Positions 6,500 through 46,278 of a DNA stretch of 64,000 bases are shown piece by piece (positions within the stretch are counted from its first letter, which is position 1; each line of letters begins with the position of its first letter). The translations under genes and the position numbers were made by a program. Source of the DNA: Rhodococcoides fascians A25f (GTDB taxonomy: Bacteria; Actinomycetota; Actinomycetes; Mycobacteriales; Mycobacteriaceae); assembly GCF_000760935.2 (NCBI RefSeq), contig NZ_CP049744.1, positions 2,283,001 to 2,347,000 on the forward strand, in the 5' to 3' direction. The notes under the pieces were generated by a model that did no database searches, was not told the DNA's origin, and worked only from the letters and a program-made list of their open reading frames with translations.

Positions 6500-6538
6500 C
6501 GAAGGTTCCTCACGATCGTGGTGATCTACGCAATAGCT

Positions 6539-6567
6539 ACCCTACGGAAGTGTTCGCATAGTGGCAA
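6539..6567 (-). promoter_or_regulatory. pcaH operon promoter
   Basis: On the minus strand a -35 box TTGCCA (6562-6567) is followed after 17 bp by a -10 box TAGGGT (6539-6544), leaving a leader of about 30 nt before pcaH. One of the two TGTTCRCATA repeats (6551-6560) lies inside the spacer, where a bound PcaR would contact polymerase. The boxes were found by eye and are not experimental. Confidence 0.6.
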
Positions 6568-28340: not shown

Positions 28341-28380
28341 ACGATGTCCTCCTTCGATATCGGTGTGTGCGAAAGGGTCT

Positions 28381-29658
28381 CTAGGAGAGGACCTTCGCCA
28401 CTGCACTTTCGATGATGTCCAGGCCGCGGTCGAGCTCGTCGATCGTTGTGGTCAACGGGGGAAGAAGCTTGACGACCTCGTCCTTGGGGCCTGCGGTCTC
28501 GACGAGCAGACGCTCGTCGTAGCAGAGCTGAGACACCTTGCCGGCCAACTCGGCGTCGTCGAACACCAAGGCCTGGACCATGCCGCGACCGCGGGTCGAG
28601 ATGCCGTCGAACTTGGCGCACAGCTTGATGAACCGATCCTGGATGTGCTCGCCCTTGGCGAGGGTTTCCTTCTCGAACTTGTCGTCGGACCAGTAGTGGT
28701 CGATGGCTGCCTTCGCCGTGACGAACGACGGGTTGAAGCCGCGGAAGGTGCCGTTGTGCTCACCCGGTGCCCAGACGTCCAGCTCGGGCTTGAACAGTGT
28801 CAGCGCCAGCGGCATGCCGTAGCCGCCGATGGACTTCGACAGGGTGACGATGTCCGGGGTGATGCCGGCTTCCTCGAACGAGAAGAACTGGCCGGTGCGG
28901 CCGCAGCCCATCTGCACGTCGTCGACGATCAGCAGAATTTCGCGTCGCGAGCACAGTTCGGCCAACGCGCGCAACCACTCCGGACGTGCGACGTTGATTC
29001 CGCCCTCGCCCTGAATGGTCTCCACGATCACCGCGGCCGGACGGTTGAATCCACTGCCCGAGTCGTCGAGAACGCGCTCGAACCACTGGAAGTCCTCGGT
29101 GACGCCGCCGAAGTAGTTGTCGTACGGCATCGGAGTGGTGTGCACCAATGGAATTCCGGCGCCAGCTCGCTTCATCGAGTTGCCGGTGACCGACAACGCG
29201 CCGAGTGTCATGCCGTGGAATGCGTTGGTGAAGTTGATGATCGCCTCGCGGCCGGTGACCTTGCGAGCGAGCTTGAGCGCTGCCTCGACGGTGTTGGTGC
29301 CTGTCGGGCCGGGGAACTGAACTTTGTAGTCCAGGCCGCGGGGGTCGAGGATGTTCTTCTTGAACGACTCGAGGAACTCACGCTTGGCGACGGTGGACAT
29401 GTCGAGTCCGTGGGTGATGCCATCGCTGGTGATGTAGTCCACCAACGCGCTCTTGATCATGTCGTTGTTGTGGCCGTAGTTGAGTGCGCCTGCGCCACCG
29501 AAGAAATCGAGGTAGTCGTTACCGTTCTCGTCGGTGATGACCGAGTTCTTCGCGGTGGTGAACACGGCGGGCCACTGGCGACTGTAGCTACGCACGCCGG
29601 ACTCGACGGTCTCGAATACATCGGGCTTCTCTGTTGTCACTGTGTTCTTTTCGGTCAT
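28381..29658 (-). CDS. ectB: diaminobutyrate--2-oxoglutarate aminotransferase (internal start within the EctA-EctB frame)
   Basis: This 425-residue class III PLP aminotransferase converts aspartate semialdehyde and glutamate to 2,4-diaminobutyrate, the first committed ectoine step. Motifs are FFGGAGALNYGHNN, QFPGPTGTNTVEAALKLAR, VDDVQMGCGRTG and the PLP lysine in TLSKSIGGYGMP. The length from ATG 29658 equals normal stand-alone EctB. GAAAGGA (29670-29676) lies 11 nt upstream, so independent initiation is likely even though the frame is open into EctA. Confidence 0.93.
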   Translation of the reverse strand: MTEKNTVTTEKPDVFETVESGVRSYSRQWPAVFTTAKNSVITDENGNDYLDFFGGAGALNYGHNNDMIKSALVDYITSDGITHGLDMSTVAKREFLESFKKNILDPRGLDYKVQFPGPTGTNTVEAALKLARKVTGREAIINFTNAFHGMTLGALSVTGNSMKRAGAGIPLVHTTPMPYDNYFGGVTEDFQWFERVLDDSGSGFNRPAAVIVETIQGEGGINVARPEWLRALAELCSRREILLIVDDVQMGCGRTGQFFSFEEAGITPDIVTLSKSIGGYGMPLALTLFKPELDVWAPGEHNGTFRGFNPSFVTAKAAIDHYWSDDKFEKETLAKGEHIQDRFIKLCAKFDGISTRGRGMVQALVFDDAELAGKVSQLCYDERLLVETAGPKDEVVKLLPPLTTTIDELDRGLDIIESAVAKVLS

Positions 29659-30207
29659 GTTCTGCTTGTTCCTTTCGTAATTCCGCGATGCGTCGGGGCC
29701 CACTGTGTAGAGCTCTTCGGCTTCGTGGCTATCAGGGAAATCGTTGGGCGCGAACAAATCCGACCTGACGATGTCGGTGCCTCGCTTACGTGCGAGGCTC
29801 GTGAAGGTTGCGATGGACGCTTCGTTGTCCGGGCTGATCGTCGTTTCCAGATGCGTGATGCCCTGTGGTTCGAGGCGGTCGAGCAGCTCCATCAGCATGC
29901 GACCGGCAAGTCCCTTGCCACGCTGGTCCGCATCCACGGCGACCTGCCACACGAACAGTGTGCGCGGGGCGTCCTGGCGGATGTATCCGGTGACGAAACC
30001 GACTGCGCGGCCGTCGATATCGGATACGACGGTGGTGGCCGCGAAATCACGGCACCACAACACGTACGAGTAGCTGGAATTGAGATCCAGAACTCGCGAA
30101 TCTCTTGCGATCTCCCAGAGCCGGACTCCGTCGGAGATCTGTGGCTTACGAAACTTCACTGCGTCCGGCGCAGTGAGCGGGGTACCTCTCAGCAATGCGG
30201 GCTTCAT
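28381..30207 (-). CDS. ectA: EctA-EctB continuous frame: diaminobutyrate acetyltransferase joined to diaminobutyrate aminotransferase
   Basis: The frame encodes 608 residues with no stop between two normally separate enzymes. Residues 1-183 are EctA, a GNAT acetyltransferase (VLDLNSSYSYVLWCRDFA, VAVDADQRGKGLAGRML for acetyl-CoA binding, ETTISPDNEASIALF-type text) ending in EELYTVGP. A linker DASRNYERNKQN follows, then the EctB methionine at residue 184. EctA acetylates L-2,4-diaminobutyrate, which EctB makes. The linker codons include the SD-like GAAAGGA for ectB. Separate translation of EctB plus a read-through fusion are both possible. ATG 30207 gives usual EctA length; ATG 30279, 8 nt after a TAACCT box, is an alternative. 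Confidence 0.85.
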   Translation of the reverse strand: MKPALLRGTPLTAPDAVKFRKPQISDGVRLWEIARDSRVLDLNSSYSYVLWCRDFAATTVVSDIDGRAVGFVTGYIRQDAPRTLFVWQVAVDADQRGKGLAGRMLMELLDRLEPQGITHLETTISPDNEASIATFTSLARKRGTDIVRSDLFAPNDFPDSHEAEELYTVGPDASRNYERNKQNMTEKNTVTTEKPDVFETVESGVRSYSRQWPAVFTTAKNSVITDENGNDYLDFFGGAGALNYGHNNDMIKSALVDYITSDGITHGLDMSTVAKREFLESFKKNILDPRGLDYKVQFPGPTGTNTVEAALKLARKVTGREAIINFTNAFHGMTLGALSVTGNSMKRAGAGIPLVHTTPMPYDNYFGGVTEDFQWFERVLDDSGSGFNRPAAVIVETIQGEGGINVARPEWLRALAELCSRREILLIVDDVQMGCGRTGQFFSFEEAGITPDIVTLSKSIGGYGMPLALTLFKPELDVWAPGEHNGTFRGFNPSFVTAKAAIDHYWSDDKFEKETLAKGEHIQDRFIKLCAKFDGISTRGRGMVQALVFDDAELAGKVSQLCYDERLLVETAGPKDEVVKLLPPLTTTIDELDRGLDIIESAVAKVLS

Positions 30208-30287
30208 AGGAAATACAAACGTAACAACGTTGCCCAGGCATATCGACTGCGCCGGGAAATCGACCCCGGAAACGGACATGCTTCCCC

Positions 30288-30316
30288 AGGTTAACCGACG
30301 AATGTGATGGTGCTCA
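30288..30316 (-). promoter_or_regulatory. candidate ectA promoter
   Basis: On the minus strand TAACCT (30288-30293) is preceded after 17 bp by TGAGCA (30311-30316). The -10 is good and the -35 weak. Ectoine genes are usually induced by osmotic stress. No specific osmotic or sigma-factor element was recognised. Confidence 0.4.
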
Positions 30317-30382
30317 CACGATCGGCGCCCGGCAGGCGTTACCCAGAAATGCGCGGTATAAACCCCGGTTTGCCGAGAATCT

Positions 30383-32500
30383 TCATTTCGGTGTTGCGAG
30401 CGCGAACGGCAACACCGCCAGAGCACCCGCTGACGTCAGAGCAGACGTGGCACAGGTGAACGTCCACCCGGTGTCGGTCAGCAGATCGATCAACAGAATC
30501 GGCCCTGGCACGGACGATACGTCCGGAACCTCCCACGAGTCCACCAGGCCGGCGACCCGAAACGCGGAATTAGCGGCCGATACCGGCGGGTGACCGGGCC
30601 TGACCTGCATCATCCCCAGATCCTGCAACTTGCCGACGGCTGCCAATCGCGCGGCGATCGACCGCACCAGCAGCGGGTGAGTGGGGGAGTCGAGGGCGAG
30701 AACGGCAGCGGGCCGCTGCTTCCAGTCCCAATTGGCCAGCACTGTGATGCAGGCTTTCTCGAGAGCATCGGTGGCAGGGGCATCGGGCGCGTCCAGCAGA
30801 GCCCGCAAGCGGCTACCCCAACCCAGGTCGGTCAAGCGACCCAACACACGTCCCGGCTCGTGCGGATCTGCGATCTTGCCCGAGAGGGATACACCCAGCT
30901 TCTTCATGCCGCTCGGCCACTGCTTTCTCGGCTGCAGGTCGATGCCCGGCCGATCCAGCCGTGCTCTTGCCGAATCGACCGAGGCCGCGTCGACGGAAGC
31001 GGACAGGTGCTCACCCGTGCAGTTGTCACACCGTCCGCAGCGATCGGACTCGCTGCCCGGTGCGCCGAGGTCGGGATCGTCGAGCTGCCGACGCAGGAAC
31101 TCCATCCGGCACCCGTCGGTGCTCTGGTAGTCGAGCATGGCCTGCTGTTCGCGGTCCCTCGCTTGTTCGAGGCGCTCGTAACGGTCCGCGTCGTACGTCC
31201 ACTGTTCCCCGGTGGCCATCCAGCCGCCACGAACGCGTCTGACCGCTCCGTCGACGTCGAGGACCTTGAGGACCATCTCGAGCCTGCTGCGGTTCAGCTC
31301 GACCAGCGGCTCCAGTGCCTGCGTCGATTGAGCCTTCTCGGTGTTCAAGGCCTCTATGACCTGCCGCACCAGATGTTCGCGGGGGAAGGCGACCGAGGCG
31401 AAGTAGCTCCAGATCTGCCGATCCTCGTGGCCGGGAAGCAGCACCACGTCGGCTCGTTCCGTGGCGCGCCCGGCACGGCCGACCTGCTGGTAGTACGAAA
31501 TCGGAGACGATGGAGCCCCCATGTGCACCACGAAACCGAGATCGGGCTTGTCGAACCCCATGCCGAGCGCGGACGTGGCGACGAGTGCCTTGACTCGGTT
31601 GGCGAGCAGATCACCTTCGAGCGATTCGCGCTCCGTGGGGTCCGTTTGACCGGTGTACGACGCAACGACGTGGCCCTGATCGGTCAACAGAGCCGCGAGG
31701 TCCTTGGCCGCCGACACCGTCAGGGTGTAGATGATTCCGGACCCGGGCAGAGTCTTCAGGTGATCGCCGAGCCAGGCGGCCCGTTCGGTGGCGTTGTCGA
31801 TCTTCACCACCGCCATGCGCAGCGAATCGCGGGCGAGCCCGCCGCGCAGTACGAGCGTGTCGCCACCGCCGACACCCAGCTGTGCCGCAACGTCGTCCAC
31901 CACGCGGTCGTTGGCCGTTGCGGTGGTCGCGAGTACGGGAATACCGTCGCGCAGCTCGGCGATCAGGGTGCGGATACGCCGGTAGTCCGGCCTGAAATCG
32001 TGGCCCCAATCCGAGACGCAGTGCGCCTCGTCGACCACAACCAGGCCGGCGTCCCCGGCCAGGGACGGCAGCACCTGATCGCGGAAATCGGGGTTGTTCA
32101 AACGCTCGGGACTGACCAGCAACACATCGAGCTCACCGGAGTTGACCTGCTGGTGAATGTCGTCCCATTCGGTCATGTTCCCCGAGTTGATCGTGGCTGC
32201 CCGAACGCCTGCGCGCTCTGCGGAGGCCACCTGATTACGCATCAAAGCCAACAAGGGGGAGACGATGACCGTAGGACCCAGGCCCTGAGCGCGTAGAAGC
32301 TTCGCGGCGATGAAGTACACGGCAGACTTTCCCCAGCCTGTTCGCTGCACCACCAGAGCACGTCGACGGTGCACCACCAGGGCCTCGATCGCCGTCCACT
32401 GGTCGTCCCGCAGCACAGCGTCGGGGCCGGCGAGCTCGCGCAACAACCTTTCGGCGTCATCGCGCAAGTTGCCCACGGTCGCGTGCGTCGCTGTCGTCAT
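30383..32500 (-). CDS. recQ: RecQ-family ATP-dependent DNA helicase with C-terminal PRTase-like segment
   Basis: This 705-residue helicase has Walker A TGWGKS (54-59), the DEAH box in VVDEAHCVSDWGHDFRPDY, motif VI QQVGRAGRA and a zinc-binding cysteine cluster (CGRCDNC). The C-terminal 40 residues, PILLIDLLTDTGWT and following, resemble the PRPP loop of phosphoribosyltransferases found in this actinobacterial RecQ type. The second acidic residue of the usual DD pair is leucine here. ATG 32500 is preferred because CACGAT stands 7 nt before it. Two earlier starts (32509, 32530) exist. Confidence 0.9.
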   Translation of the reverse strand: MTTATHATVGNLRDDAERLLRELAGPDAVLRDDQWTAIEALVVHRRRALVVQRTGWGKSAVYFIAAKLLRAQGLGPTVIVSPLLALMRNQVASAERAGVRAATINSGNMTEWDDIHQQVNSGELDVLLVSPERLNNPDFRDQVLPSLAGDAGLVVVDEAHCVSDWGHDFRPDYRRIRTLIAELRDGIPVLATTATANDRVVDDVAAQLGVGGGDTLVLRGGLARDSLRMAVVKIDNATERAAWLGDHLKTLPGSGIIYTLTVSAAKDLAALLTDQGHVVASYTGQTDPTERESLEGDLLANRVKALVATSALGMGFDKPDLGFVVHMGAPSSPISYYQQVGRAGRATERADVVLLPGHEDRQIWSYFASVAFPREHLVRQVIEALNTEKAQSTQALEPLVELNRSRLEMVLKVLDVDGAVRRVRGGWMATGEQWTYDADRYERLEQARDREQQAMLDYQSTDGCRMEFLRRQLDDPDLGAPGSESDRCGRCDNCTGEHLSASVDAASVDSARARLDRPGIDLQPRKQWPSGMKKLGVSLSGKIADPHEPGRVLGRLTDLGWGSRLRALLDAPDAPATDALEKACITVLANWDWKQRPAAVLALDSPTHPLLVRSIAARLAAVGKLQDLGMMQVRPGHPPVSAANSAFRVAGLVDSWEVPDVSSVPGPILLIDLLTDTGWTFTCATSALTSAGALAVLPFALATPK

Positions 32501-34323: not shown

Positions 34324-34374
34324 GAACGAACTGTATCTCTCCCCGAGCCCGACTCGATGGAAATGCGAATTGCA

Positions 34375-34388
34375 GATTGTTGACAATC
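34375..34388. promoter_or_regulatory. candidate GntR operator, copy 1
   Basis: GATTGTTGACAATC is a perfect inverted repeat (GATTGT-TG-ACAATC) that covers the first -35 base and most of the hexamer of the aminotransferase promoter. The same half sites occur at 40848-40861. The TTGTNNACAA core fits FadR-subfamily GntR operators. Confidence 0.7.
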
Positions 34389-34408
34389 GGAAACGCGTGA
34401 GTGACGAT
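34380..34408 (+). promoter_or_regulatory. promoter of the aminotransferase operon (leaderless)
   Basis: TTGACA (34380-34385), a 17-bp spacer and GACGAT (34403-34408) are followed 7 nt later by the ATG at 34416. The consensus -35 is half of the GntR palindrome, so repressor binding would block it. Confidence 0.65.
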
Positions 34409-34415
34409 GGCAGTC

Positions 34416-35681
34416 ATGACAGCGTCGACTCGTACCCACCTCAGCCCGGCACTCAAGCAGGCGACCCCGATCGTCGTCGATCACGGAAAGGGCAGCTGGA
34501 TCATCGGTACGGACGGGCGCAAGTACCTCGACTTCACCACTGGAATCGGTGTCACCAGTACCGGGCACTGCCATCCGCGCGTGGTCGAGGCCGCGCGCGA
34601 GCAGGTGGGCAAGATCATCCACGCGCAGTACACGACCGTCATGCACCAACCGCTACTGGAGTTGACCGACAAGCTCGGCGAGGTACTGCCGGCCGGGCTC
34701 GACAGCGTGTTCTACGCCAACTCCGGCTCCGAGGCCGTCGAGGCGTCGATTCGATTGGCACGCATGGCAACCGGGCGACCCAACATCATCGCCTTCCACG
34801 GAGGATTTCACGGACGCACGGTAGCGGCCGCATCGTTGACCACCGCTGGAACCAAATTTCGCTCCGGCTTCTCGCCGATCATGGGGGGAGTGCACATCGC
34901 ACCGTTCCCGTACGCGTTCCGGTACGGCTGGGACATGGACACCGCGGTCGCCTTCGCGCTGAAGGAACTCGACTACCTGCTGATGACGATGTCGAGCCCC
35001 GCCGACACCGCCGCGTTCATCATCGAACCGGTTCTCGGTGACGGTGGATACCTGCCCACGCCGCCCGAATTTCTCGAAGGGCTGCGGGAACGCGCCGACA
35101 CGCACGGCATCGTGCTGATCGTCGACGAGGTGCAAGCAGGTGTCGGGCGTACCGGAAAGTTCTGGGGGCACCAGCACTCGTCGATCACACCGGACATCGT
35201 CATCACCGCGAAAGGGCTCGCCAGCGGATTTCCGATCTCTGCCATCGCGGCATCGACCGAGCTGATGAGCAAGGCATGGCCGGGTTCTCAGGGCGGAACC
35301 TACGGCGGCAATGCCGTCGCCGCCGCTGCCGGCGTCGCCACCCTCGATGTCGTGCGCGACGAGGGTCTTGTCGCCAATGCAGCCGTCCAGGGCAAGGTTC
35401 TGCTCGACGGCCTGCTCGCACTGAAGGCAGAGCACTCGGCCATCGGTGATGCACGTGGACTGGGCCTGATGCAGGCGCTCGAATTCGTCGACAGTGCAGG
35501 CAATCCCGATGCTGCCGCCGCCCTCCGCGTACAGCAGGGCGCGATCGACGAAGGGCTGTTGCTGCTCACGTGCGGGGCGCTCGGCAACGTGGTCCGGATC
35601 ATTCCCGCGCTGATCGTGAACGACGACGAGATGCGGCAGGGCATCGACGCGCTGTCGCGAACGCTGAAGAACGTGCTGTGA
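34416..35681 (+). CDS. class III (GabT-like) aminotransferase
   Basis: This 421-residue PLP enzyme of the 4-aminobutyrate/ornithine aminotransferase group has VFYANSGSEAVEASIRLAR, the aspartate in LIVDEVQAGVGRTG and the PLP lysine K266 in ITAKGLASG. Annotated relatives act on 4-aminobutyrate. In this setting it could instead be the diaminobutyrate transaminase of ectoine breakdown (DoeD). The start at 34416 rather than GTG 34401 or ATG 34407 follows from the promoter position. It is the first gene of an operon with the oxidoreductase, the aldehyde dehydrogenase and probably the GntR gene. Its stop overlaps the next start (GTGA). Confidence 0.85.
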   Translation: MTASTRTHLSPALKQATPIVVDHGKGSWIIGTDGRKYLDFTTGIGVTSTGHCHPRVVEAAREQVGKIIHAQYTTVMHQPLLELTDKLGEVLPAGLDSVFYANSGSEAVEASIRLARMATGRPNIIAFHGGFHGRTVAAASLTTAGTKFRSGFSPIMGGVHIAPFPYAFRYGWDMDTAVAFALKELDYLLMTMSSPADTAAFIIEPVLGDGGYLPTPPEFLEGLRERADTHGIVLIVDEVQAGVGRTGKFWGHQHSSITPDIVITAKGLASGFPISAIAASTELMSKAWPGSQGGTYGGNAVAAAAGVATLDVVRDEGLVANAAVQGKVLLDGLLALKAEHSAIGDARGLGLMQALEFVDSAGNPDAAAALRVQQGAIDEGLLLLTCGALGNVVRIIPALIVNDDEMRQGIDALSRTLKNVL

Positions 35682-38590
35682 CGTCTGCGCCCATCCGATC
35701 CGATGTCCCCGCACTCGTGCATCGAGTGCGGGAGACGGGGATCGATATCGACGACTCGTCTCGGCGCGTGGCCGAGTATTCCTACGACGCCTCGAACTAC
35801 CGAATTCCGCCTGCAGCGGTCGTGTTCCCGCGCAGTGCCGACGACGTGTCCACCGTGGTGTCGCTGTGCACCGAGGCCGGAGTCGCTGTTGTCGGCCGCG
35901 GCGGCGGAACGTCGATGGCGGGCAACGCCATCGGCCGCGGAATCGTGCTCGACTTCTCTCGTCACATGAATCGGGTGATCTCGGTCGACACGGATTCGCG
36001 GACCGCCGTCGTGGAACCGGGCATCGTGATTTCGGAGTTGCAGCGTGAACTGGTGGCACGCACGTCGGGGGCCTTCACGTTCGCCCCCGACCCGTCCAGC
36101 AAAACACGCGCCACGGTGGGCGGTGCAGTCGGCAACGACGCATGCGGTAACCACTCGGTTCGCTACGGTCGCACCTCGGACCACACGGTGGCGATGGACG
36201 TGGTGACAGCCGAGGGGCATCTACTGCGGGTCACCCGTAGTGGCGTGTCGGCCGTGCACGCCGAAGATGCGGCAGCAAGCATTGCGGCCGAACGTATTTC
36301 GCACGAGTTGCGCACACTTGCGGCCGATAATCTGGCGCTGTTCAGGGTCGAGCTGGGCCGCATTCCGCGACAGGTGTCCGGTTTTCACCTGTCGCATCTG
36401 CTGCCCGAGAACGGATTCGACGTCGCGCGTGCGCTCGTCGGCAGCGAGGGCACCTGTGCGGTGATCGTCTCGGTCACCGTCACGGTCGTGCCCGTACCGC
36501 CTGCTGCGTTGCTGCTCTGCCTCGGCTATCAGGACGTGGTCGCAGCTGCAGCCGACGTCATGGCGATTCTGGAATTTTCGCCGGCCGCGGTGGAGGGGAT
36601 CGACGACAACATCGTGCGGACGATGGAGTACCGGCGTGGGCCGGACTCCGTACGCGGCTTGCCGGCAGGAAATGCCTGGCTGTACGTCGACCTCGACGGG
36701 GCCGACGCGGCCGAGGTCGAGGACAAAGCGGCAAGGCTGCTCGGGGAACTCGGCCGGCTCGGACGGTTGAAGGAAGGTCGCATCGTCTCCGACCCGGCCG
36801 ATCGAACAGCGCTGTGGCGGGTACGTGAAGACGGCGCGGGCCTGGCCACGCGGATGGCCAGTGGAGTCGAGTCCTGGGGCGGGTGGGAGGACGCCGCCGT
36901 GGCACCGGAAAACCTGTCGGCCTATCTCGCCGACCTGAATTCGCTACTGGCCGAGCACGAACTGACCGGAGTGATGTACGGCCACTTCGGTGCCGGCTGC
37001 ATGCACGTGCGCATCACGTTCGATCAACGCACCGACGCCGGGCGACGGGTGATGTACGACTTCCTGCGCGCCGCAGCGCGGGTCGTCGTCAAGCACGGCG
37101 GCAGCCTGTCGGGCGAACACGGAGACGGCCGGGCACGCTCGGAACTACTGCCGGTGATGTACTCGCCGCGCATGCTGGACGCGTTCGCGCGATTCAAGCG
37201 CATCTGGGACCCCAGCGGCATTCTCAACCCGGGATCGATCACCGAGCCCGAGCCGATGATGGACAACCTTATGCTGCAGGGTATTCCGCAACGAGAGTGG
37301 AAGACAACGTTCGATCTGCACCAGATCGGAACGCGAGAGGATCTGGATCCTTTCGTTCACGCCACCCAATCGTGTGTCGGTGTCGGTAAGTGCCGCACCA
37401 CCTCCGGAGGCGTCATGTGCCCGAGCTTCCGCGCGACGGGCGACGAGAAGGATTCCACTCGGGGCCGCGCCCGGGTGCTGCAGGAGATGGTGCGCAGCTC
37501 GCCGACCGTCGCCGACGGGTGGGCCTCGAAAGACGTGGCAGAGTCGTTGGACCTGTGCTTGTCGTGCAAGGCCTGTTCCTCGGACTGCCCGGTCGGGGTG
37601 GACATGGCGACGTACAAATCGGAGTTTCTCGACCATCACTATGCGGGTCGGTTGCGACCGCTCTCGCACTACTCGCTGGGATGGTTGCCCCGCTGGCTGA
37701 AGGTGACGCAGCGAACGGCACCGCTGCTCAACCGTCTGCTCACCCCGCGCATCGCGGCACTGGCGGCTCGACTCGGTGGGCTGACCACCGAGCGGCCGTT
37801 GCCGCGCTTCGCGTCGGCGAAGGAACTGGCTCACGAAATACGGATGGGCGCAGGCCGCACCGCCGACGTGGTGCTTGTCGTCGACACCTTCACTCAGGGC
37901 TTTCGCCCCGAGGTCGCGGGCGCGGCGCAGCGCGTGCTCGAGGATTCCGGCCGCAGCACCGAATGCCGGACCGACGTGTGTTGTGGTCTGACGTGGATCT
38001 CGACGGGCCAGTTGAAGGCCGCCCGCAAACACCTCACGAAAGCCGTTGCTGCGCTCGACGACGGTACCGATCGGCCGATCGTCGTCACCGAGCCGAGCTG
38101 TGCCGCGGCATTCCGAAAGGACATGCCCGAGTTGGTACCGACGGCTGCCGCGAGAAGGGTTGCGGCGCGTGTACAGAGCTTCGCGGGAGCGGTGATCGAT
38201 CAAGCCGCGGCGGGCTGGGTGCCCTCGGCGCAGGTTCCTGCGTCGGTGACGGTCCAGACCCACTGCCACGAATATGCCGTGTTCGGCAACGCGACCCAAC
38301 GCAACGCTTTGGCCTCCGTCGGTGTCGATGCAGTGCGGGAAGCCACCGGATGCTGCGGAGTGGCAGGCAATTTCGGCTTCGAGAGCAGTCACTACGAGCT
38401 CAGCATGAAAGTCGCCGAACAGGCTCTCGCACCGGCTGTTCGTGCCACCGAGCCCGACACTCCGATTCTGACCGACGGATTCAGCTGCCACATGCAGGTG
38501 CGACAACTCACCGGTGAGCTGACCAGTGATGCGTCCGTGCACCTGGCTCAAATACTCGATCCACGTTCGACGAAAGGACCGCGGCAATGA
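35678..38590 (+). CDS. FAD-linked oxidase fused to Fe-S/CCG domains (D-2-hydroxyacid dehydrogenase type)
   Basis: This 970-residue protein joins a GlcD-like FAD oxidase to a GlcF-like part. The PCMH FAD domain is in residues 40-260 (VGRGGGTSMAGNAIG, GGAVGNDACGNHSVRYG). A C-terminal oxidase cap runs to about 540 (GHFGAGCMHVRI, GSLSGEHGDGRARSE). 4Fe-4S cysteines are in CVGVGKC (near 566) and CLSCKACSSDCP (near 627). CCG domains lie near 768 and 892. Relatives such as E. coli YdiJ oxidise D-2-hydroxyglutarate or D-lactate and pass electrons to the respiratory chain. The substrate here is unknown. It is translationally coupled on both sides. Confidence 0.85.
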   Translation: MTSAPIRSDVPALVHRVRETGIDIDDSSRRVAEYSYDASNYRIPPAAVVFPRSADDVSTVVSLCTEAGVAVVGRGGGTSMAGNAIGRGIVLDFSRHMNRVISVDTDSRTAVVEPGIVISELQRELVARTSGAFTFAPDPSSKTRATVGGAVGNDACGNHSVRYGRTSDHTVAMDVVTAEGHLLRVTRSGVSAVHAEDAAASIAAERISHELRTLAADNLALFRVELGRIPRQVSGFHLSHLLPENGFDVARALVGSEGTCAVIVSVTVTVVPVPPAALLLCLGYQDVVAAAADVMAILEFSPAAVEGIDDNIVRTMEYRRGPDSVRGLPAGNAWLYVDLDGADAAEVEDKAARLLGELGRLGRLKEGRIVSDPADRTALWRVREDGAGLATRMASGVESWGGWEDAAVAPENLSAYLADLNSLLAEHELTGVMYGHFGAGCMHVRITFDQRTDAGRRVMYDFLRAAARVVVKHGGSLSGEHGDGRARSELLPVMYSPRMLDAFARFKRIWDPSGILNPGSITEPEPMMDNLMLQGIPQREWKTTFDLHQIGTREDLDPFVHATQSCVGVGKCRTTSGGVMCPSFRATGDEKDSTRGRARVLQEMVRSSPTVADGWASKDVAESLDLCLSCKACSSDCPVGVDMATYKSEFLDHHYAGRLRPLSHYSLGWLPRWLKVTQRTAPLLNRLLTPRIAALAARLGGLTTERPLPRFASAKELAHEIRMGAGRTADVVLVVDTFTQGFRPEVAGAAQRVLEDSGRSTECRTDVCCGLTWISTGQLKAARKHLTKAVAALDDGTDRPIVVTEPSCAAAFRKDMPELVPTAAARRVAARVQSFAGAVIDQAAAGWVPSAQVPASVTVQTHCHEYAVFGNATQRNALASVGVDAVREATGCCGVAGNFGFESSHYELSMKVAEQALAPAVRATEPDTPILTDGFSCHMQVRQLTGELTSDASVHLAQILDPRSTKGPRQ

Positions 38591-40050
38591 CGACCAGCCT
38601 CACTCGACCCCCCATGACGACCCCCACCGACCTGTTCATCGGAGGTGTCTGGACAGCCGCAGCCTCGGCTGCCCGGTTCGATGTGATCGATCCCGCCAGC
38701 GGTGACGTGATTTCCACGGTGGCCGACGGTGGCATCACCGATGCCGAGAGTGCGATGGCTTCGGCAGTCGATGCTGCTGCCGAGTGGGCCGCGACTGCGC
38801 CCCGTGCCCGCAGTGAAATCCTCCGTAAGGCTTACGAATTGATCATGGCGCGGTCGGAGGAACTCGCCGCGATTATCACCGCGGAAATGGGGAAACCGCT
38901 GGCCGACGCGCGAGGTGAAGTGGCGTACGGCGCGGAGTTCTTCCGGTGGTTCTCCGAGGAAGCAGTGCGTATCTCGGGTGATCACACCCTCACCGGAGAC
39001 GGTAAGAACCGCATCGTGGTCACCCGTGCGCCCGTGGGACCGTGCATCCTCGTCACTCCGTGGAACTTCCCGCTGGCCATGGGAACCCGGAAGATCGGCC
39101 CCGCGTTGGCGGCGGGCTGCACTGTGGTGTTCAAGCCGGCCGAACAGACTCCGCTCACTGCGCTGGCTCTGGCCGGGATTCTGCACGACGCGGGTGTCCC
39201 GGCGGGCGTCGTCAATGTCGTGACCACCACCGATGCAGCGGGTGTCGTGGGCTCGTGGATGAGCAGCGGTGCGGCCCGCAAGATCAGTTTCACCGGATCG
39301 ACTGCAGTGGGAAAGATCCTGCTCGAGCAAGCTGCATCGACGGTGATGCGCGCCTCGATGGAGCTCGGTGGCAACGCACCCTTCATCGTCATGGACGACG
39401 CGGACCTCGGCCGCGCCGTGGACGGAGCGATGGTTGCGAAGATGCGCAACATGGGCGAGGCCTGCACCGCAGCCAATCGATTCTTCGTACACCGTAGTGT
39501 CGCAGCGCAGTTCGCGGACGAGCTCGCCGAGCGCATGGGTGCGTTGACGGTGGGGGCAGGTAGTGCACACGGCACGGAGGTGGGGCCGCTGATCGACGAT
39601 GCGGGCCGGTCGAAGGTGCAGAGACTCGTCGACGACGCTCTCGGTCGTGGCGCGTGTGCGATCGTCGGGGGAGCGGCACCGGACGGACCCGGCTACTTCT
39701 ACCCGCCGACGGTGCTGACGGACGTCGACTCGAATTCGGATCTGATGTCGCAGGAAATCTTCGGGCCGGTGGCGGCGATCGTGCCGTTCGACACCGAGGA
39801 CGAGGTGATCGCCCTCGCGAACGACACCGAATGGGGACTCGTCGGATACGTCTTCACTCAGGACATCGATCGGGCGCTACGGATGGGGGAGCGGCTCGAG
39901 GTGGGCATGGCCGGTCTCAACACCGGTCTGGTCTCCAACCCCGCGGCACCGTTCGGTGGCGTCAAACAGTCCGGGCTGGGCCGCGAGGGCGGAAAAGTCG
40001 GAATCGACGAGTTCCTGGAGTACAAATACTTTGCCATTCCCCGAGGCTGA
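38587..40050 (+). CDS. NAD(P)-dependent aldehyde dehydrogenase (succinate-semialdehyde type)
   Basis: This 487-residue aldehyde dehydrogenase has the general base E259 in MELGGNAPF and nucleophile C293 in GEACTAANRF. NAD contacts are in TPWNFPLAMGTRKIGPAL and FTGSTAVGK. The sequence resembles GabD. With the aminotransferase two genes upstream it could oxidise succinate semialdehyde, or aspartate semialdehyde as DoeC does in ectoine degradation. The ATG overlaps the preceding stop. The GntR gene follows after 15 bp. Confidence 0.87.
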   Translation: MTTSLTRPPMTTPTDLFIGGVWTAAASAARFDVIDPASGDVISTVADGGITDAESAMASAVDAAAEWAATAPRARSEILRKAYELIMARSEELAAIITAEMGKPLADARGEVAYGAEFFRWFSEEAVRISGDHTLTGDGKNRIVVTRAPVGPCILVTPWNFPLAMGTRKIGPALAAGCTVVFKPAEQTPLTALALAGILHDAGVPAGVVNVVTTTDAAGVVGSWMSSGAARKISFTGSTAVGKILLEQAASTVMRASMELGGNAPFIVMDDADLGRAVDGAMVAKMRNMGEACTAANRFFVHRSVAAQFADELAERMGALTVGAGSAHGTEVGPLIDDAGRSKVQRLVDDALGRGACAIVGGAAPDGPGYFYPPTVLTDVDSNSDLMSQEIFGPVAAIVPFDTEDEVIALANDTEWGLVGYVFTQDIDRALRMGERLEVGMAGLNTGLVSNPAAPFGGVKQSGLGREGGKVGIDEFLEYKYFAIPRG

Positions 40051-40065
40051 AGGAGGCTTTCGATC

Positions 40066-40779
40066 ATGCCCAGTTCGAGAAGACTGACGCCCATCGACGC
40101 ACGCAACACGTCGATGGTGATTGCCGACCAGATTCGCGATCGCATCATCGACGGGTCCTATGCCCCGGGGGAGCAGATCAACGAGGCGAACGTGGCGGCC
40201 GAACTCGAAATCTCGCGCGGCCCGGTGCGTGAGGCGCTGCAGCGCCTCAATCAAGAGGGTCTGCTGGTCAGCTACCGCAACCGGGGCGTGTTCGTCGTGG
40301 AGCTCAGCAGCGACGACGTCACCGAGATCTACGAGTCCCGCGCGGCGATCGAGGTCGGTGCTGCGTGGACGTTGGTACACGGTGATCGCGGCCGACTGAT
40401 CACCGCTGCCGACGAGCTCTCGGCCATCGTGATGCAGATGCAGCCGTTCATCGACCGGGCGGACTGGCGAGGTCTGGCCGAACGAGACCTCGCATTTCAC
40501 ACCGCCCTGGTCGCAGCGACGCGCAACAGCCGAATGTCGCGGATGTACGCGACGCTCGCTGCGGAGGCGCGGATCTGTATGGCCAACCTCGAAACTGCCT
40601 ACTACCGGCCTGAGGCATTGGTGGAGGAGCATCAACTGATTGTCGATCTACTGCTCGGAACCGATTGGGACGCACTGGAAAAGGGCGTACACGAGCACAT
40701 GGACACCGCCATCCACGACTTGACGCGGGCGATGGTCGAGGAGCACGCCGAAAACTCGGTTCTGGCCACTCCGGGATAG
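40066..40779 (+). CDS. GntR-family (FadR/FCD) transcriptional regulator
   Basis: This 237-residue regulator has an N-terminal winged helix (ADQIRDRIIDGSYAPGEQINEANVAAELEISRGPVREALQRL in overview, residues about 15-75) and a C-terminal FCD helical domain with metal-site-type Asp/His residues (RDLAFHTALV, EEHQLIVDLL, VHEHMD). A strong GAAGGAGG site precedes the ATG. It lies between two transcription units that both carry GATTGTNNACAATC at their promoters, so it is the probable regulator of both and of itself. The effector may be an ectoine-derived intermediate; this is inferred from context. Confidence 0.88.
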   Translation: MPSSRRLTPIDARNTSMVIADQIRDRIIDGSYAPGEQINEANVAAELEISRGPVREALQRLNQEGLLVSYRNRGVFVVELSSDDVTEIYESRAAIEVGAAWTLVHGDRGRLITAADELSAIVMQMQPFIDRADWRGLAERDLAFHTALVAATRNSRMSRMYATLAAEARICMANLETAYYRPEALVEEHQLIVDLLLGTDWDALEKGVHEHMDTAIHDLTRAMVEEHAENSVLATPG

Positions 40780-40817
40780 ATCGCTCGGCGTGCAACACAG
40801 CATTTACATCTGAAGTC

Positions 40818-40847
40818 TTGCGTACCTCCGGCGTAAGCGCCTAGCCT
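40818..40847 (+). promoter_or_regulatory. promoter of the M24 hydrolase operon
   Basis: TTGCGT (40818-40823), an 18-bp spacer and TAGCCT (40842-40847) are followed immediately by the palindromic operator. The transcript would begin inside the operator and have a leader of about 38 nt ending in GAAGGGGG. Confidence 0.55.
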
Positions 40848-40861
40848 GATTGTCAACAATC
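40848..40861. promoter_or_regulatory. candidate GntR operator, copy 2
   Basis: GATTGTCAACAATC is a perfect inverted repeat identical in both half sites to 34375-34388, with only the two central bases swapped. It abuts the -10 box and covers the expected transcription start, the classical position for repression. Confidence 0.72.
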
Positions 40862-40892: not shown

Positions 40893-42182
40893 GTGAACGA
40901 CTCATCCGACTCCGCATACGTCACCGCAATCGGACCCGAAGACACCGCAGGACGGGCCGCTCCCGGCCTGGCGCGGTACCCCGATGTTCCGAACAGCACG
41001 CCGATCACGTTCACCGACGAGGAGTACGCCGCCCGGCTCGCTGCCGTCCGTGAGCGGATGGCAGCGCAGAACCTCACCGCACTCATCGTCACCGATCCCG
41101 CCAACCTCTACTACCTGCTCGGGTACAACGCGCTCTCGTTCTACACCCCGCAGATGTTGTACGTCCCGCTCGAGGGCGACATGTATTTCTTCGCCCGCGA
41201 AATGGACGCCAACGGCGCGTTTCGCACGTCGTGGCTGCCGCAGGATCGGACGTTCGGCTACCCCGAAACGTTCGTGCAGCGCAAGGACACTCATCCCTTC
41301 GTCTGGGTCGCCGCGAAGCTGCGCGAACTGGGGCTGGTGAACAACTTCGAGCACGGCCAAGTGGGTCTGGAGATGGACTCGTACTACTTCAGTCCCAAGG
41401 CATTCGAGGCTCTGGTGAAGTCGCTGCCCGAGTACCGATTCACCGACTCCTACGAGCTCATCAACTGGGTGCGAGTGGTCAAGTCGCCCGCGGAGATCGC
41501 CCTGATGCGCGGTGCTGCACAGGTGTGTGAATCGGCGATGTCGGCGGCCTACCAGTCGATCTCGGTGGGTGAGCGGCAGTGCGACGCGGCCGCGGCCATC
41601 ATGAACGCACAGGTGCGGGGCACCGCAGACTTCGGCGGCGATCATCCGGCAATCGTGCCGATGCTGCCCACCGGTGCCGGGGCCGACACCCCGCACCTGA
41701 CCTGGTCGCATCAACCCTTCGTGCGGGGCGAGACCACCGTCGTCGAACTGGCCGGAGTGTTTCGGCGCTACCACATCCCGATGGCACGCACGATCGTGCT
41801 CGGAAAGCCCAGTCCGCGTTTGGATTACCTCGCCAAGTCCACCGGGGAAGCATTGAACGACGTGCTCGCAACCGTGCGGGCAGGCGTCACCGCCACCGAG
41901 CTGGCGCAGGTGTGGAACACCAGCCTGGCCAAGCACGGACTGCACAAACCGTCGCGCATCGGCTACTCGATCGGCATCGCCTACGCACCCGACTGGGGTG
42001 AGCGCACCGTGAGCCTGCGCACCGACGACGAGACGGTGCTCGCCGAGAACATGACGTTCCACATCATCGGCGGAATGTGGATGGACGACTACGGATACGA
42101 GGTATCCGAGGCCGTTCGCGTCACTGAGACCGGCCTCGAAACCTTCACCGCATACCCCCGAGAACTACTGACGAAGGAGTGA
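40893..42182 (+). CDS. doeA: ectoine hydrolase-like M24 family protein
   Basis: This 429-residue creatinase/Xaa-Pro-peptidase fold protein starts at GTG 40893, 5 nt after GAAGGGGG. It lacks the usual M24 metal ligands: the first aspartate is glutamate in VVELAGVFRRYH, the second is absent in IPMARTIVLG, and the metal histidine of GHG is lost in GYSIG. These changes, with GGDHPAIVPMLPTG, PHLTWSH and PDWGERTVSLR, are what I recall of ectoine hydrolases (DoeA/EutD), which open the ectoine ring to N-acetyl-diaminobutyrate. Ectoine synthesis genes lie 10 kb away. A general peptidase is unlikely without metal ligands. Confidence 0.72.
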   Translation: MNDSSDSAYVTAIGPEDTAGRAAPGLARYPDVPNSTPITFTDEEYAARLAAVRERMAAQNLTALIVTDPANLYYLLGYNALSFYTPQMLYVPLEGDMYFFAREMDANGAFRTSWLPQDRTFGYPETFVQRKDTHPFVWVAAKLRELGLVNNFEHGQVGLEMDSYYFSPKAFEALVKSLPEYRFTDSYELINWVRVVKSPAEIALMRGAAQVCESAMSAAYQSISVGERQCDAAAAIMNAQVRGTADFGGDHPAIVPMLPTGAGADTPHLTWSHQPFVRGETTVVELAGVFRRYHIPMARTIVLGKPSPRLDYLAKSTGEALNDVLATVRAGVTATELAQVWNTSLAKHGLHKPSRIGYSIGIAYAPDWGERTVSLRTDDETVLAENMTFHIIGGMWMDDYGYEVSEAVRVTETGLETFTAYPRELLTKE

Positions 42183-42184
42183 GC

Positions 42185-43543
42185 ATGACCGCATCCACCC
42201 GAGGTCAATTCACAGGCTCCACTTCTGCCACACAAGGTCGTTCCGCAGGCTCCACTCCTGCCACACAAGGTCATTCCGCAGGCTCCACTCCTGCCACACA
42301 AGGTCGTTCCGCAGGCTCCACTCCCAGCATTCCCTGGGCCCTGCGAACCGACAAGCTGGTGGGATCGGTGATCGATTCGTCGACATCGCTCCTCGCGGCG
42401 CAGAAACACGACATCGTGCGCTTCGCGATGGGATCTCCTGCCGCCGAGACGGTTCCGGCTGCTGCATTCACCGAGATCGCCTCCAGCGTGCTCACCGCGG
42501 ACGCATTCGATTACGGTGCCACCGAGGGTGACCCCGGCCTGCTCGACGCATTGCTCGCATACCTCGAGTCGGTGGGCGAGCCCACGTCCGAAGAGCGAGT
42601 GGTGATCACCTCGGGCGGGATGCAAGGCCTCGACATCGCGTGCAAGTTGTTCGTCGATCCGGGCGACCTGGTGATCGTCGAAAGCCCCACTTACACCAAC
42701 GGAACCGCCACCGTACTCAGTTACGGGGGCGACATCCTCGAGGCCCCGATGGACAGCAACGGTCTCATCGTCGAGGCATTGCCCGAGCTCGTCGAGCGCG
42801 CGGGGCGGTTGCCGAAGATGATCTACGTGATCCCCAACTTTCAGAACCCGTCCGGGGTGACCCTGTCGCTCGAGCGCCGTCGGTTGCTCATCGAATTGGC
42901 ACACCGTTGGGGATCGGTGATTCTCGACGACGATCCCTACGGTCTGCTCCGGTTCTCGGGTGAGTCGATCCCCAGTTTCGGCACACTCAGTCCCAACGAC
43001 CCGTTGATCTTCTCCGTGCGCACGTTCTCGAAGATGATCGCGCCCGGCCTACGGGTGGGATGGGTGGACGCCGCCCCCGAGGCGCGGCAACTGATCGTCA
43101 ACGCCAAGCAGGCAATGGACACGTGCACCAACCTGCCTGCGCAGCGGATGGTCGCCGAGTACATCCGGCGTGGACTGCTCGACGAGCACCTTCGTTCGTT
43201 GGCGTCGGTGTACCTACCGCGCAAGGTCGCGATGCAGAACAGCATCGCCAGACACTTCGGTGACTCGATGTCGACGACCGACCCCGAGGGCGGATTCTTT
43301 CTCTGGGCGACGTTGCGCGGCAACGACGTCGACTTCTCCACTCAGGACCTGTTCGAGACGGCGCTCGCCGAAGGAGTGGCCTACATCCCGGGACCGGCAC
43401 TGTCGGTGGGCGGCAAATTCCACGATTCGCTGCGCCTGTGCTTCGCCTCGTCGACTCCCGAACGCATCGACGAGGGAATCAGAAGACTGGCGGTGGCAGT
43501 GGAGAAGTCCAAGCACCTGCTCGCCTCCGATCCCACTCGATGA
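42185..43543 (+). CDS. class I/II PLP aminotransferase with repeated N-terminus
   Basis: This 452-residue fold-type I aminotransferase is like the LysN/2-aminoadipate group and the aminotransferase half of MocR regulators, but it has no winged helix. The PLP lysine is K283 in FSKMIAPGLRVGWV. VVITSGGMQGLDI and IPNFQNPSG are further motifs. Residues about 7-47 consist of 11-residue repeats (AGSTPATQGRS) encoded by a dispersed DNA repeat, and are unlikely to belong to the fold. AAGGAG ends 5 nt before ATG 42185. The stop overlaps the M20 gene (ATGA). The substrate is unknown; a role in transamination of an ectoine-derived amino acid is possible. Confidence 0.8.
   Translation: MTASTRGQFTGSTSATQGRSAGSTPATQGHSAGSTPATQGRSAGSTPSIPWALRTDKLVGSVIDSSTSLLAAQKHDIVRFAMGSPAAETVPAAAFTEIASSVLTADAFDYGATEGDPGLLDALLAYLESVGEPTSEERVVITSGGMQGLDIACKLFVDPGDLVIVESPTYTNGTATVLSYGGDILEAPMDSNGLIVEALPELVERAGRLPKMIYVIPNFQNPSGVTLSLERRRLLIELAHRWGSVILDDDPYGLLRFSGESIPSFGTLSPNDPLIFSVRTFSKMIAPGLRVGWVDAAPEARQLIVNAKQAMDTCTNLPAQRMVAEYIRRGLLDEHLRSLASVYLPRKVAMQNSIARHFGDSMSTTDPEGGFFLWATLRGNDVDFSTQDLFETALAEGVAYIPGPALSVGGKFHDSLRLCFASSTPERIDEGIRRLAVAVEKSKHLLASDPTR
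42203..42325. repeat. 33-bp tandem repeat, about 3.7 copies, inside a coding region
   Basis: Units start at 42203 (diverged), 42236, 42269 and 42302 (partial). Units two and three are nearly identical, and the period of 33 keeps the frame. The reverse strand carries the 17-bp core TGGAGCCTGCGGAACGA, also found intergenically at 12441 and 32555. Confidence 0.9.
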
Positions 43544-44736
43544 CGGTCACGAGTTCCGAACGTGCCCTCCTCGACTCGATCGACGAGCACGAAATTGTCG
43601 GTCTGACAACCGCTTTGATCGATGCGGGCGGTGAGAATCCCGGGGACACCGAGGAGAAGACCGCGAAGGTCCTCGCCGAACACTGTCGCGCACTGGGTTT
43701 CGATGTTCGGACCGTCGAGGTCGCTCCTGGTCGGCCCAACGTCTTCGTGTCCATCGGATCCGACGAGCGGCCAGGGGTGCTGTTCGTGGGCCACTCCGAT
43801 GTGGTCCCCGCTGGTACGGGCTGGACCACCGATCCCTTTTCCGCCGTGGTTCGGGACGGCCGCATCGTCGGCCGCGGGTCCTGCGACATGAAGGGCGGCC
43901 TGGCCGCGGTGGTGGCGGCCATGGCCGCCGTGCTGCGTTCCGGTCTCGCGGACGAGCACCCCATGACGTTGGCGTGCCTGGTCGACGAGGAGGACACTGG
44001 ACTCGGTATCCGAGCTTTCGTCGCTGAACCGCAGCACCGCACGTACAGCTGTTGCGTGGTGGCGGAGCCTACGGATCTGGTCACCATCTACGGCTGCAGA
44101 GGGGCGGCGAACCTGGAGATCGAGGTTCGGGGCCGTTCCGCGCATGCGGGGCAGCCGCGCAACGGAGCCAATGCCATTTCTGCTGCAGCACGCATCATCG
44201 GAATCATCGAGGGCTCCCAGGCCGAACTGGACGCGAACCCCGACCCCGAACTGGGGCCGGCCACCTGGAACGTGGGGACGATAGCGGGAGGTACGGGCAC
44301 CTCGATGGTCGCCGACCGGTGTGTCGTCACCGTCGACCGACGTCTGTTACCGGGCGAGAGCGCCGCCGGGGTCGTCGGAGATCTGCGATCCCGCATCGAA
44401 TCTGCGGAACTCACCGGGTCGGGTATCGATGTCGAGATCGGTATCGCAATGGAAATGCCAGGCTTTCTGACCAGCGTAAACAACGGATTGGTCACTACCG
44501 CAGTGCAATCGGTTATCGACAACGGATTTGGCCGTTCCACTGACATCTGGACGGCATCGTGCGATGGTGGTTTTGTGGCACAGCAGATGGGAATACCCAC
44601 CGTCGTGCTCGGTCCCGGGGAGATCGAAAAACAAGCACATCGGCCGGACGAGTCCGTCGCCGTGCGGCAATTGACCGACAGCGCAAGGGCGTACGCGTTG
44701 ATCGCCACCAGAATTGCTGCACTACCAGGACTTTAG
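43540..44736 (+). CDS. M20 family deacylase/peptidase (ArgE/DapE type)
   Basis: This 398-residue zinc hydrolase has a complete di-metal site: H85 (GHSDVVP), D116 (CDMKGG), catalytic E150 and metal E151 (DEEDTG), E176 (AEPTD) and H367 (KQAHRPDE), plus the dimerisation domain (GRSAHAGQPRNGANA). Such enzymes remove acetyl or succinyl groups from amino acids. Next to an ectoine-hydrolase-like gene it may deacetylate N-alpha-acetyl-2,4-diaminobutyrate, a step done in Proteobacteria by the unrelated DoeB/EutE. The ATG overlaps the aminotransferase stop. Confidence 0.85.
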   Translation: MTVTSSERALLDSIDEHEIVGLTTALIDAGGENPGDTEEKTAKVLAEHCRALGFDVRTVEVAPGRPNVFVSIGSDERPGVLFVGHSDVVPAGTGWTTDPFSAVVRDGRIVGRGSCDMKGGLAAVVAAMAAVLRSGLADEHPMTLACLVDEEDTGLGIRAFVAEPQHRTYSCCVVAEPTDLVTIYGCRGAANLEIEVRGRSAHAGQPRNGANAISAAARIIGIIEGSQAELDANPDPELGPATWNVGTIAGGTGTSMVADRCVVTVDRRLLPGESAAGVVGDLRSRIESAELTGSGIDVEIGIAMEMPGFLTSVNNGLVTTAVQSVIDNGFGRSTDIWTASCDGGFVAQQMGIPTVVLGPGEIEKQAHRPDESVAVRQLTDSARAYALIATRIAALPGL

Positions 44737-44850
44737 CGCTGCACGAGGGGGTTGGCCGAAACGTATGTTCTGCATCGCCGTAATGTCGAACGCTGCGAAG
44801 TACCACACCGACGCTCCACTTTGTCCACAAAAGCGAGAGGTATTTCGACC

Positions 44851-46278
44851 GTGACCGAAAATTCAGGGTCGGCAGCATCGCCGACCGGATATCCCCCCAG
44901 TACCGACACCCTGAGCCCGGACGAGACCAAGATTCTCCACCGCGCCATCGGCGGATCTGCACTCGGCAACGCAGTCGAGTGGTTCGACTACGCGGTGTAC
45001 GGCTATCTCGCCGTCTACATCGCCGCCAACTTCTTCCCGTCCGAGGACGGGGGAGCGAGCCTGCTCTCCACGTTCGCCGTGCTGGCTGCGTCGTTCATCA
45101 TTCGTCCCATCGGCGGCATCGTGCTCGGCCCACTCGGCGACCGCATCGGTCGTCAGAAGGTCCTCGTGCTGACCGTCTCGATGATGACATTGGCCACGGC
45201 GGCGATCGGTATATTGCCGACATTCGACACCATCGGCATCGCCGCACCGTTGCTGCTGCTCGTCTGCCGATTGGTGCAGGGCTTCTCCACCGGCGGTGAG
45301 TACGGCGGCGCAGCTGTGTTCATGGCCGAGTACGCGCCCGACAAGCGGCGCGGATTCTTCGGATCGTTCCTCGAATTCGGCACCCTCGCAGGCACGGTGG
45401 GCGGTGCCACCCTGTGCACCCTGCTCAACGTCGGGCTCGGCGACGAGACCATGGAGGCCTGGGGCTGGCGAATCCCGTTCCTGGTGACGCTTCCGTTGGG
45501 CATCGTTGCGCTGTGGTTGCGGACCCGGCTCGAGGATTCTCCGGTGTTCGCCGAAGCGAAGGAAGACGGCGGCACGGTCGAAGAGGGTGCAGGCGGAGCC
45601 GTCACCTCACTCAAGGCCACCATGACGTACTGGCAGCGGATCCTGATTCTGATGGGATTCGTGCTGCTACTCAACATCGCGTACTACACGGTGCTGACGT
45701 TCTTGCCCTCGTACCTGAGCGACACGTTGGGGCACAGCACGACTCAGTCCAACTTCACCCTCGTGGCGATCATGATCATCATGATGTTGATCATCAACCC
45801 GATCGGTGCTCTGTCCGACCGGGTGGGCCGAAAGCCGTTGCTGCTGGCGGCCTGCGTCGGGTACTTCGTGTTCAGCGTTCCGCTGTTCCTGTTGATCATC
45901 AACACCGGACTGATCGGCCAGAGCATCGGCCTCCTGGGCCTCGGAGTGTTGCTGGTCATCATGTGCTCGTGCGTGTCGTCGACACTGCCCGCACTGTTCC
46001 CCACCCAGGTGCGCTACGGAGCGTTCGCCATCGGATACAACGTCTCGACGGCGCTCTTCGGCGGTACGGCACCGCTGATTCTGACGTTCCTGATCGACCG
46101 GACGGGGTCCAACCTGATCCCGGGTTGGTACATGATGATCGCGGCTGCCATCGCGTTCGTTCCGATTCTGTTGATGCCCGAGACGGCAGGGCGATCACTG
46201 CGCGGAACTCAGTGCCCTGGTGACAACGACGACGAGGTCGCTGCGTCCGGCGTCGAGCTCGTCGGTTACAAGAAGTAG
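44851..46278 (+). CDS. MHS-family MFS transporter (metabolite:H+ symporter, ProP-like)
   Basis: This 475-residue protein has about 12 membrane segments. MHS features are NAVEWFDYAVYGYLA in the first helix, RPIGGIVLGPLGDRIGR in loop 2-3, RLVQGFSTGGEYGGA and DRVGRKPLL. Known members take up osmolytes (ProP), citrate, shikimate or aromatic acids. Position inside the catabolic cluster suggests uptake of its substrate, perhaps ectoine. The start is set at GTG 44851 with AGAGG about 9 nt upstream. A TTG 99 bases earlier would add a non-membrane extension. Confidence 0.85.
   Translation: MTENSGSAASPTGYPPSTDTLSPDETKILHRAIGGSALGNAVEWFDYAVYGYLAVYIAANFFPSEDGGASLLSTFAVLAASFIIRPIGGIVLGPLGDRIGRQKVLVLTVSMMTLATAAIGILPTFDTIGIAAPLLLLVCRLVQGFSTGGEYGGAAVFMAEYAPDKRRGFFGSFLEFGTLAGTVGGATLCTLLNVGLGDETMEAWGWRIPFLVTLPLGIVALWLRTRLEDSPVFAEAKEDGGTVEEGAGGAVTSLKATMTYWQRILILMGFVLLLNIAYYTVLTFLPSYLSDTLGHSTTQSNFTLVAIMIIMMLIINPIGALSDRVGRKPLLLAACVGYFVFSVPLFLLIINTGLIGQSIGLLGLGVLLVIMCSCVSSTLPALFPTQVRYGAFAIGYNVSTALFGGTAPLILTFLIDRTGSNLIPGWYMMIAAAIAFVPILLMPETAGRSLRGTQCPGDNDDEVAASGVELVGYKK

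Follow-up and report, generated by a model that had tools for sequence, protein, structure and literature searches.

Organization of the locus

The window analyzed (the whole stretch of 64,000 nucleotides from Rhodococcoides fascians A25f) contains two gene units on the forward strand. Unit 1 opens with AT3, a class III aminotransferase of the GABA/diaminobutyrate type (34416-35681; the frame is open from 34401 and ATG 34416 is the proposed start). It is followed by FADox, an FAD and Fe-S D-2-hydroxyacid oxidase related to YdiJ (35678-38590; 448 bits with the YdiJ model, cut-off 1350), and ALDH, an aldehyde dehydrogenase of the succinate-semialdehyde type (38587-40050). The next gene (40066-40779) encodes the proposed repressor, a GntR regulator with an FCD domain. 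An earlier reading of the window made from sequence alone (the sequence-only reading) had assigned both domains, and both score above the Pfam cut-offs (PF00392, 65.3 bits, cut-off 27; PF07729, 68.7 bits, cut-off 24.3). The same reading placed this gene between the two units. Its position is as described, but its separate status did not hold: it starts 16 nt after the ALDH stop codon and is the last gene of unit 1.

Unit 2 starts with a DoeA-like M24 hydrolase (40893-42182), whose frame is open from 40887; GTG 40893, which lies behind GAAGGGGG, is the start common to relatives. Then come a PLP enzyme, a class I/II aminotransferase similar to the C-terminal portion of MocR proteins (42179-43543), in which the domain search found no match to a helix-turn-helix; an M20 deacylase of the ArgE/DapE family (43540-44736; TIGR01910, 232 bits, cut-off 217.6); and an MFS metabolite:H+ symporter resembling ProP (44752-46278). 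A D-2-hydroxyacid dehydrogenase (46281-47237), starting two bases past the MFS stop codon, is likely to close the unit. We infer from the sequence that both units are operons of this composition. A tandem repeat of about 33 bp is present at the start of the PLP gene (42213-42330); several relatives lack its pieces or have fewer of them.

A palindrome at two positions

The 14-mers GATTGTTGACAATC (site 1, 34375-34388) and GATTGTCAACAATC (site 2, 40848-40861), read on the forward strand, are located in front of the two units. The perfect and identical half sites pointed out by the sequence-only reading were confirmed at both positions; the two copies are exact reverse complements of each other, and their two central bases agree too. 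The right half of site 1 contains TTGACA (34380-34385), which we read as the -35 element of unit 1, and site 2 is predicted to overlie the start point of unit 2 (about 40854). No terminator-like site is listed between the GntR gene and site 2, so read-through is possible. In relatives the motif is part of a longer palindrome, TTGCAGATTGTNNACAATCTGCAA. At site 1 the window has its left outer arm TTGCA (34370-34374) and does not retain the right arm TGCAA; among the site-1 rows of the genus the left arm is found in 25 of 26 and both outer arms in nine of 26.

The complete genome (5,894,616 bases, 4 contigs) was searched for the motif, as the sequence-only reading had suggested. Exact copies of GATTGTNNACAATC are neither frequent nor randomly placed: there are two, both at this locus, and the reversed control pattern has none. 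Exact 14-mers were absent from all 100 dinucleotide-preserving shuffles of the window, and an order-2 Markov model predicts 0.0013 exact sites per window and 0.115 per genome. A chance origin of the exact motif is ruled out by these figures. At up to two mismatches a pair of matches is unremarkable (36 of 100 shuffles of the window).

With one mismatch allowed, the genome has six more places for GATTGTNNACAATC and one for the reversed control. None of the six was convincing as a further target; those in L004 and L008 are both inside open coding frames. Another (L005 1501-1514, C1:2837906) lies, judged by eye, within an apparent intrinsic terminator hairpin with a T run. The relaxed pattern ATTGTNNACAAT adds a single third place to the genome, GATTGTCAACAATT, with one mismatch to the 14-mer (L007/L138 6780-6793, C1:4198779). 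It is positioned in an unrelated cluster, between genes that by eye resemble those of 4-oxalomesaconate/pyrone-dicarboxylate metabolism, and may be either a third target or a site of another FCD regulator. The one Amdase and the five amidases of the genome do not coincide with any motif place.

The rest of the window is free of the motif at up to two mismatches. This includes the ectoine biosynthesis genes on the other strand (27942-30426), which were rejected as a target of the regulon. In that gene group ectA and ectB share one open frame of 681 codons (28381-30426, bottom strand) with no stop between the acetyltransferase and aminotransferase parts. The undivided frame is also present in L053 and in the available portion of L045, and possibly encodes an EctA-EctB fusion protein.

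Promoter elements adjoining the sites

The TTGACA hexamer within site 1 and the TAGCCT hexamer next to site 2, both named by the sequence-only reading, are present and conserved among relatives. The window and 44 loci, not counting L101 with its two-mismatch site, provide 45 distinct AT3 sites, and 40 of these have TTGACA. In 37 of these 40, xAxxxT occurs exactly 17 nt downstream of TTGACA; no other offset exceeds nine of 40, apart from one within the coding region with 16. The three exceptions have TCACCG, ACACAC and TCACCC. In the window the hexamer is GACGAT (34403-34408), the presumptive -10 element, and the fixed spacing upholds the -35 reading of site 1. The five AT3 sites without TTGACA (L099, L113, L118, L124 and L126) keep the motif and have no such spacing. 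An ATG, counted irrespective of frame, is located 26 or 27 nt past the motif in 39 of 40 sites (34416 in the window). As this ATG sits about where transcription would begin, the AT3 mRNA is probably leaderless, and the likely start of AT3 moves to 34416.

At site 2 the adjoining TAGCCT (40842-40847), presumably the -10 element of unit 2, is invariant in all 23 rows. Part of a -35-like element, CTTGC, begins 31 nt before the motif in most relatives; counting either of two neighboring offsets, it is present in 22 of 23 rows. A generic scan of the region with a sigma-70-like consensus found neither promoter, so the assignment of both rests on conservation. Site 1 is unlikely to be a promoter element of the divergent ribokinase gene: the ribokinase gene of L107 and L059 is about 3.8 kb away, whereas the motif has remained next to AT3.

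Conservation in the genus and family

A scan with the GntR protein yielded 25 loci, 22 from Rhodococcus/Rhodococcoides (L039-L060) and three distant ones (L061-L063). Site 1 is present in all 22 (21 exact; L052 with one mismatch). Site 2 was found in 20 of the 21 loci that reach far enough (19 exact; L046 with one mismatch); L059 has none, and L057 ends before it. The three distant loci have no motif at up to two mismatches. In L059 and L107 the gene order from AT3 through M20 is kept in the absence of site 2, and inspection by eye of the sequence between their GntR and DoeA genes revealed no promoter of the site-2 type. In L107, also a member of the genus, an allantoinase gene (4807-6564; 565 bits, cut-off 357.85) ends just before the AT3 operator.

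At the level of whole genomes of the genus, the exact motif is present in all 11 that are GntR-positive (two copies in ten of them, a single copy in G128) and in none of the four that are GntR-negative. Of the 201 genomes of the family, 61 encode a GntR homologue at E <= 1e-40, 94 contain the exact motif and one (G014) contains the reversed control. Exact copies are found in 48 of the 61 GntR-positive genomes and in 46 of the 140 others (Fisher p = 2e-9, indicative only, since the genomes are related). Thirteen of the 61 have no exact copy. Among the matches listed, the exact copy in G050 and G015 lies hundreds of kb or more than 100 kb from the GntR gene; in G015 sites with one mismatch adjoin the gene set (L110). 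G018 has no exact copy within its 19-kb locus L100.

Upstream of AT3 orthologues the motif is present with at most one mismatch in 44 of 45 cases (33 exact, 11 with one mismatch) and with two in L101, and the best match of the reversed control has three or more mismatches in every case. Loci L039-L060 and L094-L113 were chosen by GntR, about 20 kb being fetched around 20 GntR places, and the 36 AT3 orthologues in GntR-chosen loci comprise 28 exact sites, seven with one mismatch and one with two. The 20 places L114-L133 were chosen largely by the motif and are not independent evidence for it. Some loci share one genome, e.g. L098 and L127.

The regulator

We aligned 71 homologues of the GntR protein (36-100% identity, some from one genome). 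The wing-helix/recognition segment S50-R51-G52-P53-x-R55-E56 and the presumed metal ligands are retained in 69 to 71 of up to 71 sequences: D141, H145 and H189 in 71 of 71, and H211 in all 69 aligned. We take these residues, one Asp and three His, to be the metal ligands of the FCD domain. Many FCD proteins share a similar helix, so its conservation is weak support. No NCBIfam model matched the protein at its cut-off; the best was TIGR03338 (121 of 271.5 bits), and CsiR reached 50.5 of 218.

The proposed regulon in other genera

When the GntR protein was the query, only two genomes among 394 of the class were matched at E <= 1e-50, and both belong to this genus. With the Cryobacterium relative P0081 as the query, 42 of 394 were matched at E <= 1e-35. 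Stretches of 3.6 kb around 24 GntR homologues outside the family contain an exact site in four cases and the control in none, and among 12 loci of up to 20 kb outside the family ten have a site with at most one mismatch. In L180 some 7 kb separate the site from GntR; no site was found in L178, and those of L179 all have two mismatches.

In other genera the motif adjoins the starts of genes for AT3, ALDH, an amidase of the PRK06169 type, Amdase/EutA-like proteins, DUF3830, D-2-hydroxyacid dehydrogenase (the family of the last gene of unit 2) and GntR itself. The EutA-like proteins score below the EutA cut-off (94-118 of 318 bits). The DoeA-PLP-M20 block was found in this genus; it also occurs in loci of genera g8, g10 and g18, where it immediately follows FADox-ALDH. 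Both upper blocks, this one and that of amidase, EutA-like and DUF3830 genes, are carried by L102, L103 and L125; L181 has no DoeA gene. DUF3830 genes are among the motif-marked genes of L104, L105, L106 and L110, and no mention of DUF3830 was found in the literature searched.

The window so appears to hold one version of a larger, modular regulon. The sequence-only reading described a two-promoter regulon; in other genera, however, more than two promoters carry the motif, and site 2 was seen in this genus only. Site 2 seems to have been added locally and to provide the DoeA block with a promoter of its own. Elsewhere the 14-mer marks amidase, EutA-like and DUF3830 genes and offers a handle on the rest of the pathway.

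Discussion

Rarity, conservation, adjoining promoter elements and association with the GntR gene are observed properties of the two sites. We think it probable, with good confidence, that GATTGTNNACAATC, or the fuller TTGCAGATTGTNNACAATCTGCAA of relatives, acts as operator for the FCD-type GntR protein whose gene is at 40066-40779 and that this protein represses a catabolic regulon; this confidence does not extend to the identity of the pathway. The repressor would control breakdown genes in soil actinobacteria, perhaps for ectoine-like compounds, and the identical palindromes are very probably its binding sites.

The binding, repression, inducer and start points predicted from these data would combine as follows. 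Without inducer, a GntR dimer would cover the -35 element of unit 1 (AT3-FADox-ALDH-GntR) and also the start region of unit 2 (DoeA-like hydrolase, PLP enzyme, M20, MFS and D-2-hydroxyacid dehydrogenase), keeping RNA polymerase off both. An intermediate of the pathway, probably a carboxylate bound at the FCD metal site, would release GntR. Since GntR is encoded in unit 1, the loop is probably autoregulated.

Most likely, though at no better than about even odds, the pathway degrades ectoine or another N-acylated diamino acid related to it. In such a route the DoeA-like enzyme would open the ring, M20 would deacetylate the product, and AT3 and ALDH would lead towards aspartate. Just short of that standing, the same operator and repressor might serve another substrate, either a GABA-like compound or some other nitrogen source that is an amide or amidine, with the DoeA-like enzyme acting on a relative of ectoine. 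The nearest solved structures of AT3 and ALDH, GABA transaminase and succinate-semialdehyde dehydrogenase, favor this alternative, and in many genera amidase, Amdases and DUF3830 accompany AT3 and ALDH in the regulon, and DoeA is absent. The DoeA-like protein itself reaches 425.2 bits with TIGR02993, below the equivalog cut-off of 613, and the EutE/DoeB deacetylase (TIGR02994) has no match in the genome at E <= 0.001. On the other hand, no other protein of the genome is strongly DoeA-like (425 bits here, 60 for the next), and among solved M24 enzymes DoeA (354.8 bits over residues 40-430) is far ahead of the next (81 bits). The Glu aligned with Glu-255 of DoeA, presumably the catalytic residue, is retained (residue 287 of the window protein by hand count). 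Unit 2 has an M20 enzyme of the ArgE/DapE type. The families of AT3 and ALDH would fit the activities of a DABA transaminase and a semialdehyde dehydrogenase; eutB and eutC were not identified in the two units. The M20 and MFS genes also match the putative Gram-positive ectoine clusters, which, in the accessible part of the source, have abgB and MFS genes and in Bacillaceae lack eutE (PMC13188858).

With regard to the modular regulon, we tentatively put forward a broader reading, itself rather doubtful. One FCD repressor and one operator may govern a modular pathway across many actinobacterial genera of several families, with a lower half of class III aminotransferase, semialdehyde dehydrogenase and D-2-hydroxyacid enzymes and interchangeable upper halves (DoeA-like, PLP enzyme and M20; amidase, EutA-like and DUF3830; or both). 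If so, ectoine-type compounds would have a Gram-positive route and regulator that have gone unrecognised.

The motif could instead be bound by a different regulator encoded elsewhere, the GntR gene being merely a neighbor. The exact copies in 46 of the 140 genomes without a GntR match at E <= 1e-40, and the third site of this genome in another cluster, could be explained in this way. In some of these 140, however, a weaker GntR homologue adjoins the motif (L114 and L124, 36% identity). Motif and GntR were also lost together within the genus, and the motif tracks GntR where the neighbors differ (L120-L122, L129 and L130), which makes a different regulator unlikely.

It is very unlikely that GntR, while binding both sites, acts as an activator at site 1. 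The poor -10-like GACGAT of unit 1 resembles those of promoters that need help, and TAxxxT at the 17-nt spacing occurs in none of the 40 TTGACA sites. Against activation, site 1 contains the -35 element itself and site 2 overlies the expected start point, and operators at such positions are usually blocking; in addition, the five AT3 sites that lack TTGACA still keep the motif.

Repression by GntR remains the preferred reading; it upholds the interpretation of the sequence-only reading and widens it. The kind of switch, a classical autoregulated repressor with two operators, is familiar; this regulon is apparently undescribed, as no description of the regulator or operator was found in the literature searched, including by motif strings. 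With a regulator named, an operator defined and the genes set in order, the ectoine question becomes testable in actinobacteria.

The FCD-type GntR repressors PdhR, LldR, CsiR and PhnR have palindromic operators at promoters, and they combine GntR and FCD domains as the protein described here does. Their target genes differ from those found here.

EnuR/EutR, the MocR-type ectoine regulator of Proteobacteria, represses the ectoine catabolic cluster from a palindromic operator and responds to N-alpha-acetyl-DABA and DABA as inducers, according to the accessible parts of the sources (PMC5924519, PMC5320631). Its DNA-binding domain is of the GntR superfamily, like that of the regulator studied here, but its sensory domain is aminotransferase-like, as in MocR proteins, where ours is an FCD domain. 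The motif sequence and gene order of EnuR, as far as those parts give them, also differ.

A review of 2018 confined ectoine consumers to Proteobacteria, in the part available (PMC5924519), and in the available part of a paper from 2026 the Gram-positive clusters are termed putative and experiments on them are called for (PMC13188858). These clusters, and doeBDAC of Tsukamurella paurometabola (PMC7192451), combine a DoeA/EutD homologue with an aminotransferase, an amidohydrolase and, in some species, an MFS transporter, so far as the accessible parts of both papers go, which is the arrangement found here. The amidohydrolase is abgB in the Gram-positive clusters and M20 in the present locus. For those clusters the accessible text names PucR for Bacillota, and no FCD regulator or operator; the predicted regulator of the locus described here is an FCD-type GntR protein.
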